Shown here: one piece after another, positions 14,910-37,858 of the stretch
Layout of the letters: every line of letters starts with the position of its first letter
How positions within the stretch are numbered: position 1 is the first letter of the stretch
Source of the DNA: [Collinsella] massiliensis
Lineage (GTDB): Bacteria; Actinomycetota; Coriobacteriia; Coriobacteriales; Coriobacteriaceae
DNA length: 43,816 nt
Assembly: GCA_000333815.1 (NCBI GenBank)
Contig: CAPI01000101.1
Coordinates: 1 to 43,816 of the forward strand
Reading direction: 5' to 3'
Notes under the pieces: generated by a model
What the model was told of the DNA's origin: nothing
The model's input: the letters and a program-made list of their open reading frames with translations, nothing else
Database searches by the model: none
Made by a program: the position numbers and the translations under genes

Positions 14910-14970
14910 GAGTCATTGGGGACGGGTTCAATTGACTCAGCGAGTCATTGGGGACGGGTTCAATTGACTC
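14910..14970. repeat. Two tandem GAGTCA-type hairpin units
   Basis: Two 29-bp units (14910-14938, 14942-14970) are identical. Each has GAGTCA and TGACTC arms around the core GGGGACGGGTTC and they are 3 nt apart in the same orientation. They lie between the tRNA-Leu promoter and the stop of the peptide-binding protein gene. Confidence 0.9.
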
Positions 14971-15038
14971 GCCCGCCGCCTGCGCGCCCGCACACCCGCC
15001 CGCTCGCGCGAGACGCGCGGCGCCGGCCCCTACCGCCG

Positions 15039-17186: not shown

Positions 17187-17813
17187 CTACAGGACGGCCG
17201 CGATCGCTTCGGCGATGTCGTCGCCCCGATAGGCGTGCGTGGCTGCGCGCTCAGCTTCCTCGCTCGCGTTGAAGGCGACGGATGTCCCCACGAGCTCGAA
17301 GAGCGGTATATCCGATCGGCTGTCCCCGACCGCGATGCAGGCGCAAGGGTCGATCCCGCGGGCGGCGCAAAGCTCACGCGCATAGACGCACTTGCCCTCG
17401 CTCTCGAGCGCACGCGCCACCCCGCCCGTGCACACGCCGTCTGCGACCTCGAGCTCGGACCCCACGTAGCCGTCGAACCCATACTGCGCGCAGAGGAACT
17501 CCCCCACGACGCCCCAGGCAAGCGAGGCGATGTGCGCCTCCGCGCCCGCCGCGTGGACGGCCTCGACGGCGCGGCGCACGCCCTCGACGAGCGGCATGTC
17601 CTCGAGCAGGCCGAACAGCTCGTCCCGGCTGCGTCCGGCGTACCCCGCCGCGTCGATGCGGCACACCTCGTCGTTGTCGATCTCGCCGCGCGCGTAGGCA
17701 GCCTCTGCCTCCTCCATCGCGCGCCCGTGCCCGAGCAGGCCCGCCAGGTACGCCCCCGAGGTCACGCCCCGGGTGAGCGTCCCGTCGATGTCGAAGAACA
17801 CGATCCGCATCAT
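17187..17813 (-). CDS. HAD-IB family phosphatase (SerB-like)
   Basis: The 208-residue product has the HAD motifs in order: motif I FFDIDGTLTRG with the nucleophile Asp, motif II in AHIASLAWG (Ser), and motif IV GDSRSDIPLFE. The helical cap lies between motifs I and II, as in phosphoserine phosphatase-like HAD-IB enzymes. The substrate cannot be read from sequence. GAGGAGGGG lies just before the ATG pair (17813, 17810); the second has better spacing. The gene lies between secG and the RAYT, away from any serine-biosynthesis gene. Confidence 0.85.
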   Translation of the reverse strand: MMRIVFFDIDGTLTRGVTSGAYLAGLLGHGRAMEEAEAAYARGEIDNDEVCRIDAAGYAGRSRDELFGLLEDMPLVEGVRRAVEAVHAAGAEAHIASLAWGVVGEFLCAQYGFDGYVGSELEVADGVCTGGVARALESEGKCVYARELCAARGIDPCACIAVGDSRSDIPLFELVGTSVAFNASEEAERAATHAYRGDDIAEAIAAVL

Positions 17814-17825
17814 CTTCCCCTCCTC

Positions 17826-17861
17826 ATGGGTTGGTTGGGGACGTGTTCCTTCCAACCCATT
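17826..17861 (+). repeat. GGGTTG-type hairpin downstream of the RAYT gene
   Basis: ATGGGTTGG and CCAACCCAT arms surround the core GGGGACGTGTTC. It sits in the gap between the RAYT stop (17874) and the HAD start (17813), 12 nt from the transposase gene, in the opposite orientation to the two copies upstream of it. Confidence 0.85.
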
Positions 17862-17873
17862 CTCAGCCTATCG

Positions 17874-18629
17874 CTATGAATTCATGCACTTCGTCACGCG
17901 CGAAATGGTGTTATGGCCGACCCCCGTCAGCCGCTCCAGCTCCTTCACCGTGATGCCTGCCGCGCGAAGCGACCGCAGCGCCTCGTCCCGCCGCTCCCGC
18001 GGCAGCTTCTTCACGTCCGCGGGCTCGATGCCGCGCAATGCGCAGCGCGCCACCTCGAGGGCGTCCTCATCGGACACGCGTCTCGTTGTCCTGAAACAAT
18101 ACGACCCGAACCGTCCATCGCTGCAGAAGCGCAGGAACCCCTCCCTGCCGCCGACCATGTCGAGCACCATGGTCGTATCCACGACGCGCGCCTCACCCAG
18201 ATACTCTCGATAGCTGCTCCACGGATACGCATCAATGGAACCCATGCCCGCCTTGACGGGATTCTCGTGAATATAGCGAACCGCTTGGAGCAGCTGGGCA
18301 TCGCTCGCTATGGGAACGCTGGCGAAGCGGCCTTGGAACACGGCGCCCACATGGCCGGTCTTCTCGTTGAAACGACGCGCGTATGCCGTGGCGAGCGCGT
18401 GCATGAAATGGCTGAGTGCATGCTTCGGGTCATCGAGCAGCAGGTGAACATGGTTCCCCATGAGGCACCATGCGATGACCTTCACGTCCCCGGCCGCCGC
18501 CTTCTCCTTGAGCAGCTTCAAGAAGGTTCGCCGATCGGAATCGTCTTCAAAAATGATCTGCTTGCCATTGCCTCGGAGCATCACGTGGTACAAGCCGAAC
18601 TCCGAGTACTGTCTGGGTGGCCTTGGCAT
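17874..18629 (-). CDS. REP-associated tyrosine transposase (RAYT, Y1/IS200-like)
   Basis: The 251-residue product has the Y1 transposase fold: the LYHVMLRGNG start strand, the metal-binding HxH in MGNHVHLLL (H60, H62) and the catalytic Tyr in VRYIHENPVKAG (Y119), followed by the WSSYREYLG motif typical of RAYTs. The last 60 residues carry a helix-turn-helix-like stretch, RAAGITVKELERLTGVGHNTISRV. All catalytic residues are intact. GAGGAG lies 6 nt before the ATG. RAYTs cut and join single-stranded REP hairpins; hairpins flank this gene on both sides at 17826, 18767 and 18812. The gene breaks the gpmI-secG neighbourhood. Confidence 0.92.
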   Translation of the reverse strand: MPRPPRQYSEFGLYHVMLRGNGKQIIFEDDSDRRTFLKLLKEKAAAGDVKVIAWCLMGNHVHLLLDDPKHALSHFMHALATAYARRFNEKTGHVGAVFQGRFASVPIASDAQLLQAVRYIHENPVKAGMGSIDAYPWSSYREYLGEARVVDTTMVLDMVGGREGFLRFCSDGRFGSYCFRTTRRVSDEDALEVARCALRGIEPADVKKLPRERRDEALRSLRAAGITVKELERLTGVGHNTISRVTKCMNS

Positions 18630-18766
18630 AGACGGCTCCTCTCTCGCGACGACGCGGCGCTTGAAGCATCAAGCAAGTTGAGGAGCTTATAGAGTTTAGG
18701 GAATCAAAGCGTGCAGAGAGCCCTGGTTTCGGCAAATGGCGCGAACGGATTCGCGAGCGAAAAAAG

Positions 18767-18844
18767 GGGTTGAAAGGAACACGTCCCCAATCAACCCATC
18801 AAACGAAAAAAGGGGTTGGTTGGAACACGTCCCCAACCAACCCC
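18767..18844 (-). repeat. Two GGGTTG-type hairpins upstream of the RAYT gene
   Basis: Units at 18767-18797 and 18812-18844 both carry the core in reverse orientation (GAACACGTCCCC) between GGGTTG and CAACCC arms; the second has longer GGGGTTGGTTGG arms. They lie between the gpmI stop (18853) and the RAYT start, and face the copy at 17826. Confidence 0.88.
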
Positions 18845-18852
18845 TTGGCGAG

Positions 18853-20412
18853 CTACTCCTCGGTAGCGAGGATGCGGCCGGTCATCTCGGCGCTCGGCTC
18901 AAGGCCGGCGAGCGAGAGCAGGGTGGGCGCGATGTCGGACAGGCGCCCGTCCTCGATGCCGGTGAGCTTCGCCTTCGGATCGACCACGATGAGCGGCACG
19001 CGGTTGGTGGTGTGCGCCGTGAACGGGTGCTGTACGCCCTCGTCGTCCACGTCGTACATGTGATCCGCGTTGCCATGGTCGGCCGTGATGAGGGCGAAAC
19101 CGCCCTTCGCGAGAATCGCGGGGATGATCTTCGACAGACCATCGTCCACGGCCTCGACGGCCTTCACCGCGGCGTCGAACACGCCGGTGTGACCCACCAT
19201 GTCGCAGTTCGCGTAGTTCACGATGTAGAAGTCCGCGGCGTCGGACTCGATGGCCGCGAGCAGCTTCTCGGTGACCTCGGGCTCCGACATCTCGGGCTGC
19301 AGGTCGTACGTGGCGACCTTCGGCGAGGGAACGAGCACGCGCTCCTCCCCCTCCTTGGGCTCCTCCACGCCGCCGTTCAGGAAGAACGTCACGTGCGCGT
19401 ACTTCTCGGTCTCGGCCGTGTGCAGCTGCTTCAGGCCGTTCTGCGCAATGACGTCGGCGAGCACGTTCTCGGGGAAGGTCTTGGGGAAGGCCACCTCGAC
19501 GTTCTTGAACGTGTCGTCGTACTCCGTCATGGTGATGAAGTGCGAGAGCCTCGGGGCGACCTTGCGCTCGAAGCCGTCGAACCCGTCCTGGGTGAACGCG
19601 CGCGTCATCTCACGGGCGCGGTCGGGACGGAAGTTGAAGAACACCATGGCGTCGCCGTCGTGCACGCCCTCGTTATGGCAGGCGAAGGGCTCGACGAACT
19701 CGTCGCCGCGCGGGTCGCGCTCGTAGTAGGCGAGCACACCCTCGACCGGGTCGACGTCCGCGTCGCTCGGCAGCGTGATGACGTCGTAGGCGCGCTCGAC
19801 GCGCTCCCAGCGGTTGTCGCGGTCCATGGCCCAGTAGCGGCCGGACACGGTGGCGATGCGTGCATCGACACCCGTGTACTTGGAGAGCGCCTCGAGGTTC
19901 TCCTGAAGCGTCTTGAGGTAGCCGGCACCGGAGTGCGGGTCCACGTCGCGGCCGTCCATGAAGCAGTGGAAGCGGATGCGCTCCACGCCGTGCATGGCCG
20001 CGAGCACCGAGAGGACCTCGCCGTGGCGCTGCATGGAGTGCACGCCGCCGGGCGAGACGAGGCCGAGCAGGTGCACGGTCCCGCCGATGCGCGCCACGTC
20101 GGACATGGCGTGCGCGAGCGTGGGGTTCTCCTCGATGGAGCCATCGATGATGGCGTTGTTGATGCGGCTGAGCTCCTGGAACACGATGCGGCCGGCACCG
20201 ATGTTCAGGTGGCCGACCTCGGAGTTACCCATCTGGCCGGCCGGCAGGCCCACGTCCTCGCCCGACGCGCCGAGCGTCGTGTGCGGGTACTTCTCCCAGA
20301 GCTCGTCCAGGAAGGGCTTGTTGGCCTTGTAGACGGCGTTGTTGTCGCCCGCGGGGGCGAGGCCGAAGCCGTCCATGATCACCAGGAGCGCAGGAAGGTG
20401 ACGCTCAGCCAT
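18853..20412 (-). CDS. gpmI: 2,3-bisphosphoglycerate-independent phosphoglycerate mutase
   Basis: The 519-residue metalloenzyme interconverts 3- and 2-phosphoglycerate in glycolysis. It has the alkaline-phosphatase-like metal site at LVIMDGFGLAP, the catalytic serine in MGNSEVGHLNIGAGR, the RFHCFMDGRDVDPHSG stretch, and the late metal ligands in ITADHGNADHM. Length matches the family. It starts 2 nt after the tpiA stop with GGGGGAGTAGGG as ribosome binding site, so it is translationally coupled to tpiA and is the fourth glycolytic gene in a row. Confidence 0.96.
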   Translation of the reverse strand: MAERHLPALLVIMDGFGLAPAGDNNAVYKANKPFLDELWEKYPHTTLGASGEDVGLPAGQMGNSEVGHLNIGAGRIVFQELSRINNAIIDGSIEENPTLAHAMSDVARIGGTVHLLGLVSPGGVHSMQRHGEVLSVLAAMHGVERIRFHCFMDGRDVDPHSGAGYLKTLQENLEALSKYTGVDARIATVSGRYWAMDRDNRWERVERAYDVITLPSDADVDPVEGVLAYYERDPRGDEFVEPFACHNEGVHDGDAMVFFNFRPDRAREMTRAFTQDGFDGFERKVAPRLSHFITMTEYDDTFKNVEVAFPKTFPENVLADVIAQNGLKQLHTAETEKYAHVTFFLNGGVEEPKEGEERVLVPSPKVATYDLQPEMSEPEVTEKLLAAIESDAADFYIVNYANCDMVGHTGVFDAAVKAVEAVDDGLSKIIPAILAKGGFALITADHGNADHMYDVDDEGVQHPFTAHTTNRVPLIVVDPKAKLTGIEDGRLSDIAPTLLSLAGLEPSAEMTGRILATEE

Positions 20413-23711: not shown

Positions 23712-23960
23712 GAGTCATTGGGGACGGGTTCATTTGACTCAGTGAGTCATTGGGGACGGGTTCATTTGACTCAGGGGGCAAATGTGAGTCAATGGGGACG
23801 GGCTCGATTGACTCAAGAGACCAATGAAAACGGCTTCGCCTTGCTTGATGAGTCAAACGAACCCGTCCCCAATGACTCCTCAGTCTTGATGAGTCAATTG
23901 AACCCGTCCCCAATGGCTCCTCAGCCTTGATGAGTCAAATGAACCCGTCCCCAATGACTC
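23712..23960. repeat. Array of six GAGTCA-type hairpins between gap and whiA
   Basis: Three units run forward (23712-23740, 23744-23772, 23786-23814) and three in reverse (23850-23878, 23891-23919, 23932-23960). Arms are GAGTCA/TGACTC around GGGGACGGGTTC or its complement; small changes (GGGCTC in unit 3, GGCTC arm in unit 5) show drift. The last unit overlaps the whiA stop codon (23959-23961). This accounts for most of the gene-free stretch 23564-23958; the rest is the AT-richer gap leader. Confidence 0.9.
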
Positions 23961-37744: not shown

Positions 37745-37858
37745 GGATGGGTTGGTTGGGGACGTGTTCCGTTCAACCCATTCGCTGGAGGGCGGCGCCG
37801 GCCGACCCCAACCGTTCCCGAATGGGTTGAACGGAACACGTCCCCAACCAACCCATCC
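37745..37858. repeat. Inverted pair of GGGTTG-type hairpin units
   Basis: Left (37745-37784) and right (37819-37858) units are perfect 40-bp inverted copies separated by 34 bp. Each has TGGGTTG arms and the core GGGGACGTGTTC. The pair lies 14 nt past the uvrA stop and could fold into a 40-bp stem, so it may also end uvrA transcripts. Confidence 0.92.

Follow-up and report, generated by a model that had tools for sequence, protein, structure and literature searches.

The window, which is the whole stretch of 43,816 nucleotides analysed here, comes from the genome of a gut bacterium of the Coriobacteriaceae (G000, the source genome). It holds an intact RAYT transposase gene bracketed by palindromes of one hairpin family, A, in the gene order gpmI, RAYT, HAD-type phosphatase gene, secG. 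It also holds copies of a second hairpin family, B. The features concerned are the following.

14910–14973, forward strand: two tandem family-B hairpins (GAGTCATTGGGGACGGGTTCA..., also given as TGAGTCATTGGGGACGGGTTCA..) with a 32-bp period, cognate to the RAYT on contig C43
about 17187–17813, reverse strand: HAD-type phosphatase gene, between the RAYT gene and secG
17826–17861, forward strand: family-A palindrome ATGGGTTGGTTGGGGACGTGTTCCTTCCAACCCATT, on the 3' side of the RAYT gene
17874–18629, reverse strand: RAYT/TIRYT-type HUH-Y1 transposase gene, intact ORF of 251 aa
18764–18799, reverse strand: family-A palindrome, on the 5' side of the RAYT gene
18810–18846, reverse strand: family-A palindrome with a perfect 14-bp stem, a 9-nt loop, and then a T-run, a short way past the stop codon of gpmI
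18853–20412, reverse strand: gpmI, which in 19 genomes is the constant neighbour on the upstream side of the RAYT gene
23712–23960, both orientations: six family-B hairpins in an array, three in each orientation, with the GAPDH gene on one side and a whiA-like gene on the other
37747–37856, no strand assigned: inverted doublet (REPIN) of family-A hairpins, with uvrA and a ybaK-like gene on its two sides

The 251-aa protein matches Y1_Tnp (PF01797) in a profile search (E = 4e-14) and reaches 70.5 of the 80 bits of the NCBI model for REP-associated tyrosine transposases, just under the cut-off. It carries the motifs NHVH (residues 59–62), FQ (98–99), and YIHENP (119–124). Across 42 aligned sequences N59, H60, and H62 do not vary and conservation of Y119 is 90% or higher, in agreement with the first-pass annotation of this DNA, which had read H60/H62 and Y119 as kept; the enzyme is an intact Y1 transposase. 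The predicted structure (mean pLDDT 88) has its best PDB fold match in 4er8 (E = 8e-8), the E. coli TnpA-REP with a bound REP hairpin, and extra C-terminal helices in the model (211–223, 228–235, and 239–250) look helix-turn-helix-like; Pfam matches to HTH domains are weak and found in only a minority of family members. The HUH motif, the single tyrosine in Y---NP, the Y1_Tnp fold, and a dispersed cognate hairpin family on its flanks identify the gene as a RAYT (TnpA class 2). Judged by its sequence, it would further belong to TnpA-Y1 subclass 2.1 (TIRYT), as it has the motifs of that subclass, including FQ/WQ, in a long protein with a C-terminal helix-turn-helix (here read from the predicted helices).

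The palindromes that bracket the gene share the loop core GGGGACGTGTTC, and all three contain an exact copy of GGGGACGTGTTCC. The forward copy forms an inverted repeat with each of the two reverse ones (92% over 36 nt with 18764–18799 and 91% over 34 nt with 18810–18843), so that the arrangement proposed earlier, one forward and two reverse hairpins around the RAYT, is found as described. That the gene is enclosed by terminal inverted repeats is again a TIRYT (subclass 2.1) trait. As single strands the three hairpins fold more stably than shuffled sequences (z = −3.0, −2.3, and −4.4). GT[AG]G stands directly 5' of the hairpin foot at one of 78 sites; the hairpins are thus not classical REPs, and the earlier view that their head is unlike GTAG is borne out. 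The copy at 18810–18846 also scores as an intrinsic-terminator-like site. With its T-run it resembles an intrinsic terminator of gpmI, and a hairpin copy may have been recruited here.

Pattern searches over the assembly of 135 contigs show that the flanking hairpins recur about 90 more times in the genome. There are 81 exact copies of GGGGACGTGTTCC and, at up to one mismatch, 101 sites (50 + 51) versus seven (1 + 6) for a reversed control pattern; because several contigs end in hairpins, these counts are lower bounds. The suggestion that the RAYT has a hairpin family of its own is upheld, and the family is dispersed genome-wide. The window alone has five exact copies and 16 at up to two mismatches, where 1.5 are expected from shuffles; the placement of the hairpins relative to coding sequence was checked by eye within the window. 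Most copies in the genome stand in inverted doublets. Thirty plus/minus doublets occur, 29 of them spaced 41–93 bp, and the opposite arrangement is seen only once. Within a doublet the arms are more alike than swapped arms are (1.45 versus 2.47 mismatches over 35 nt, p = 2e-4), and the doublet at 37747–37856 folds into a single long hairpin (−58.6 kcal/mol, z −13). Two loci, L143 and L145, have doublets with a common spacer in opposite orientation. Many inverted doublets of a single family, with short spacers and coherent arms, are the structural hallmark of REPINs and BIMEs, and the dispersed family-A inverted doublets are REPIN-like elements. In genome G042 copies of this hairpin follow one another head to tail with a period of exactly 36 bp, which sets the monomer length at 36 nt.

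The source genome has six Y1_Tnp genes; the RAYT beside gpmI is present in a single copy, and the other RAYTs are at most 53% identical to it. The RAYT on contig C43 has its own hairpin family, B (GAGTCATTGGGGACGGGTTCA), with 96 copies in the source genome, again a lower bound given that family-B hairpins bound contigs, and no more than four in any other member of the bacterial family. Contigs C42, C45, C87, C116, and C128 are those that start or end in such hairpins. The family-B array at 23712–23960 is absent from G060, a genome of the same genus. A third sequence, with GGGGACAGGC, flanks the RAYT on contig C48, and other palindromes flank those on contigs C29 and C51. The RAYT at locus L001 (contig C99) lies near a tRNA-Lys-like sequence and is seemingly flanked by GATAAAAAAGTGTC-type repeats that lack a GGGGAC core. 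A tRNA was the only Rfam match near the RAYT locus.

The comparison extended to 99 distinct RAYT loci in Coriobacteriia and Firmicutes. Flanking inverted repeats are present at 72 of the 99, as opposed to 1.8% when flanks are swapped between loci and none when they are shuffled, and GGG[AT]C lies within 56 of these 72. The 55 anchored loci have 35 different hexamers beside the core, i.e., their stems differ, and the stems are self-complementary with their own partners (6.97 versus 3.64 for swapped arms, p = 5e-4). Hairpins of a further family, C, fold poorly as single copies. Hairpins with GGGGACGGTTCT often flank the RAYTs of Firmicutes such as Bacillus and Alkaliphilus (L107–L116), so that the core is not confined to Actinomycetota.

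Every hairpin family tested is abundant where its RAYT is. Family A has 93, 107, 58, 21, and 16 copies in the five genomes whose RAYTs form a clade (clade A) and a median of zero in the other 62 (p = 4e-5, with genomes taken as independent). Hairpins equally frequent in relatives without a RAYT, which would have spoken against the reading of the first-pass annotation, were not seen: 13 genomes with no RAYT at E ≤ 1e-30 have at most five copies of any of four hairpin families, and at least ten copies are reached in 15 of 54 RAYT-bearing genomes versus 0 of 13 (Fisher p = 0.025, with genomes taken as independent, though they are related). Six genomes without a clade-A RAYT (G051, G020, G062, G063, and G043 among them) have 20–74 family-A-like copies at up to three mismatches, many of those listed being variants such as GGGGACGGGTTCG, and in G003, where the RAYT at gpmI is not of family C, family-C hairpins number 52. 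Hairpins without a matching RAYT in G003 and in G051, G020, G062, G063, and G043 must be relics, the mark of missed genes, or cross-matches.

The position of the gene is conserved. A RAYT lies directly downstream of gpmI, in the same orientation, in 19 genomes of five genera of Coriobacteriaceae. The annotation had put the gene between gpmI and secG; this is correct on the gpmI side, and on the other side the HAD-type phosphatase gene intervenes. The HAD gene accompanies the RAYT in several relatives, and both are absent from G060, which also lacks two hairpin arrays; at these orthologous empty sites the intergenic DNA of G060 is too diverged to align and to give exact insertion boundaries. 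In several relatives without a RAYT at this site gpmI and secG are directly adjacent; this junction keeps two hairpins in G051 (L199) and one in G020 (L219), possible scars of RAYT loss. The contig of G042 breaks in a hairpin just after gpmI, and its RAYT is thus probably in the gap.

Enzyme and hairpin vary together. RAYT distance and hairpin distance are correlated over 55 loci in a Mantel-type comparison (r = 0.72, p = 5e-4). At the gpmI site, for 12 loci chosen for repeated GGGAC motifs, the partial correlation of RAYT with hairpin given gpmI is 0.815 (p = 2e-4), and that of gpmI with hairpin given RAYT is −0.045 (p = 0.61). In both sets hairpins were selected by repetition within the locus, with no stem presupposed; stem-based selection (36 loci, seven gpmI-site genomes) gives a partial r of 0.54 (p = 0.03). 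In an exploratory comparison of four protein domains with two hairpin parts, with domain borders of our own choice and p values (0.0005–0.001) uncorrected for shared ancestry, loop differences go with residues 91–130 (partial r = 0.32) and stem differences with residues 1–90 and 185–248 (0.26 and 0.14). The segment 91–130 holds the FQ motif, in place of the W94–Q95 region that is involved in GTAG recognition in E. coli.

The RAYT and gpmI trees disagree. Genus clades, with genera as given by taxonomy, are rejected by the RAYT data (AU p = 2e-5, 4e-43, and 7e-7), and the five-member RAYT clade A, which was chosen after the RAYT tree was seen, is rejected by gpmI (p = 2e-6). gpmI unites the source genome and G063 at full support, and their RAYTs are only 62% identical. 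The gpmI-site RAYT of the source genome is 72%–73% identical to gpmI-site RAYTs of other genera, and at most 53% identical to its own paralogues. The grouping of G001 with G065 is not clearly rejected by gpmI (p = 0.065), and as gpmI, whose backbone branches are weak in part, fails to recover every genus as one clade, the conflict rests mainly on clade A and on the pair of the source genome and G063. Since the hairpins track the RAYT and not the neighbouring gene, enzyme and hairpins look as if they had been exchanged, or had co-evolved, as a cassette at a fixed site. G003, with a clade-A RAYT at gpmI, has 21 family-A and 52 family-C hairpins, the latter of the type of G001 from the same genus. 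A RAYT replacement that left relic hairpins behind fits this single case.

What lies at the locus is a real enzyme–hairpin system of the TIRYT kind and not a canonical GTAG REP system. We consider it likely that a resident, single-copy RAYT of TIRYT / TnpA-Y1 subclass 2.1 type acts with cognate GGGGAC-cored hairpins, that the enzyme scatters these hairpins, and that the pair co-evolves and is exchanged between genera at the gpmI site. By analogy with TnpA-REP, the extruded hairpin is probably what the enzyme binds and cuts. It would most likely bind the hairpin as single-stranded DNA, reading loop core and stem, and the Y119 nucleophile would cut it at its ends before re-joining. Monomers of 36 nt, head-to-tail tandems, and above all inverted doublets (REPINs) would in this way be scattered through intergenic DNA, as the RAYT gene itself stays downstream of gpmI. 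Enzyme and hairpin specificity would evolve together, and after an exchange of the pair between genera, presumably by recombination, old hairpin families would remain as relics. With GTAG all but missing from the foot, another motif must guide the enzyme; the candidate is GGGGAC, which is conserved at the top of the stem and in the loop.

A stronger version of this reading is put forward tentatively, at rather less than an even chance. It holds that RAYT and hairpin make up an exchangeable cassette that sets specificity and keeps one place in the chromosome. Recombination between genera would substitute one enzyme–hairpin pair for another there; every incoming enzyme would seed REPINs of its own, and the population of its predecessor would persist as a dated fossil. 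The loop core would take over the guide role of GTAG and be read by the segment around FQ (residues 91–130), and the stem would be read by the core of the protein and the C-terminal HTH. For the exchange step alone there is a competitor, to which we give similarly guarded credence: the conflict with the gpmI tree may reflect paralogy that went unnoticed, or different RAYTs may have inserted independently, more than once, at a site that they prefer. Genomes hold up to six RAYTs, several relatives have gpmI and secG without one, and the weak gpmI branches point the same way; against it, orientation and adjacency are the same in 19 of 19 genomes, and the source RAYT is closer to its gpmI-site counterparts in other genera than to its own paralogues.

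The first-pass annotation took the symmetric 1-kb block for a REP–RAYT mobile unit. A RAYT with its own dispersed hairpins is indeed present, but the idea of the block as a transposing unit is not supported. It is improbable that the block is an IS-like element ending in hairpins that recently landed between gpmI and secG, with the doublets as its MITE-like deletion derivatives, even though the arrangement is symmetric, gpmI and secG adjoin each other in several relatives, the doublets resemble the unit without its gene, and G051 keeps a hairpin pair at the same place without the gene. The near-identical copies of a whole unit that characterise IS200/IS605 elements are absent from the source genome, where the block occurs once and the paralogues are far diverged, and its constant place and orientation beside gpmI in five genera imply that residence is old or the site strongly preferred. 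There is no evidence in the genome searched of the block transposing as one piece; the dispersing entity is the 36-nt hairpin with its inverted doublet. Very improbable indeed is that the hairpins belong to the host, as transcription terminators or gyrase/IHF-type sites, with the RAYT simply lying in their midst. The copy after gpmI does have a hairpin, a T-run, and a terminator-like score, but only one of the three hairpins is terminator-like, as many as shuffled sequences would give. RAYT-free relatives were searched for an equal abundance of hairpins, which was not found, and each family is specific to an allele, is rare in close relatives, and varies with the RAYT sequence rather than with the neighbouring gene.

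The resident RAYT with its cognate hairpins adds a new instance to a kind already described, TIRYT/TIRtron, and its record of co-evolution can be read unusually well. TIRtrons have been described as Y1 transposase genes between inverted repeats, many with GGGGWSAS and unrelated to GTAG REPs, and some of the repeats are self-complementary and belong to dispersed families of dimers or clusters (Di Nocera et al. 2013, PMC3733652). The RAYT gene here likewise lies between inverted repeats of a dispersed, self-complementary family. Its core, GGGGACGT, fits GGGGWSAS in the first six letters and not in the last two (6/8), and relatives have GGGGACAG families that match at every position. The text of PMC3733652 does not mention Coriobacteria by name, and we found no description of a fixed locus or of cassette exchange for TIRYTs and TIRtrons. 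Literature searches by core sequence returned only unrelated papers, mostly on eukaryotes, and in the wording searched no paper joined Actinobacteria, RAYT, and REP.

Subclass 2.1 (Bertels group 1) resembles our protein in NHVH, FQ for WQ, Y---NP, a length of about 240 aa, and a C-terminal HTH extension. A survey found no REP-like sequences for this subclass, either automatically or by hand (Quentin et al. 2018, PMC6006769), whereas most close and distant relatives examined here have flanking hairpin-like inverted repeats; the 72 of 99 loci disagree with that survey and agree with the TIRYT description in PMC3733652. The REP–TnpA(REP) systems of E. coli and Stenotrophomonas (groups 2 and 3) share the HUH-Y1 fold, flanking hairpins dispersed as inverted doublets (BIME/REPIN), and allele-specific pairing. 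In TnpA-REP, cleavage of single-stranded REP falls at CT or CA and GTAG serves as the guide (PMC8266576); the hairpins here have no GT[AG]G guide at the foot and place the conserved motif at the stem top and loop, and the protein has an extra C-terminal HTH domain. IS200/IS605 elements (IS608, ISDra2) are alike in catalytic fold and single-strand hairpin ends, and differ in having multiple near-identical gene copies and Y---Q in place of Y---NP.

These results suggest that a RAYT subclass listed as lacking REPs does have hairpin families, in Actinomycetota as well. They also suggest that enzyme–hairpin pairs have moved between genera, whereas a model of REPIN persistence assumes almost purely vertical inheritance (PMC8049555). 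With many natural allele pairs at one site, downstream of gpmI, the rules by which enzyme recognises hairpin can be tested directly by mixing alleles. Across related bacteria enzyme and hairpin change together, like a lock and key swapped as a pair.
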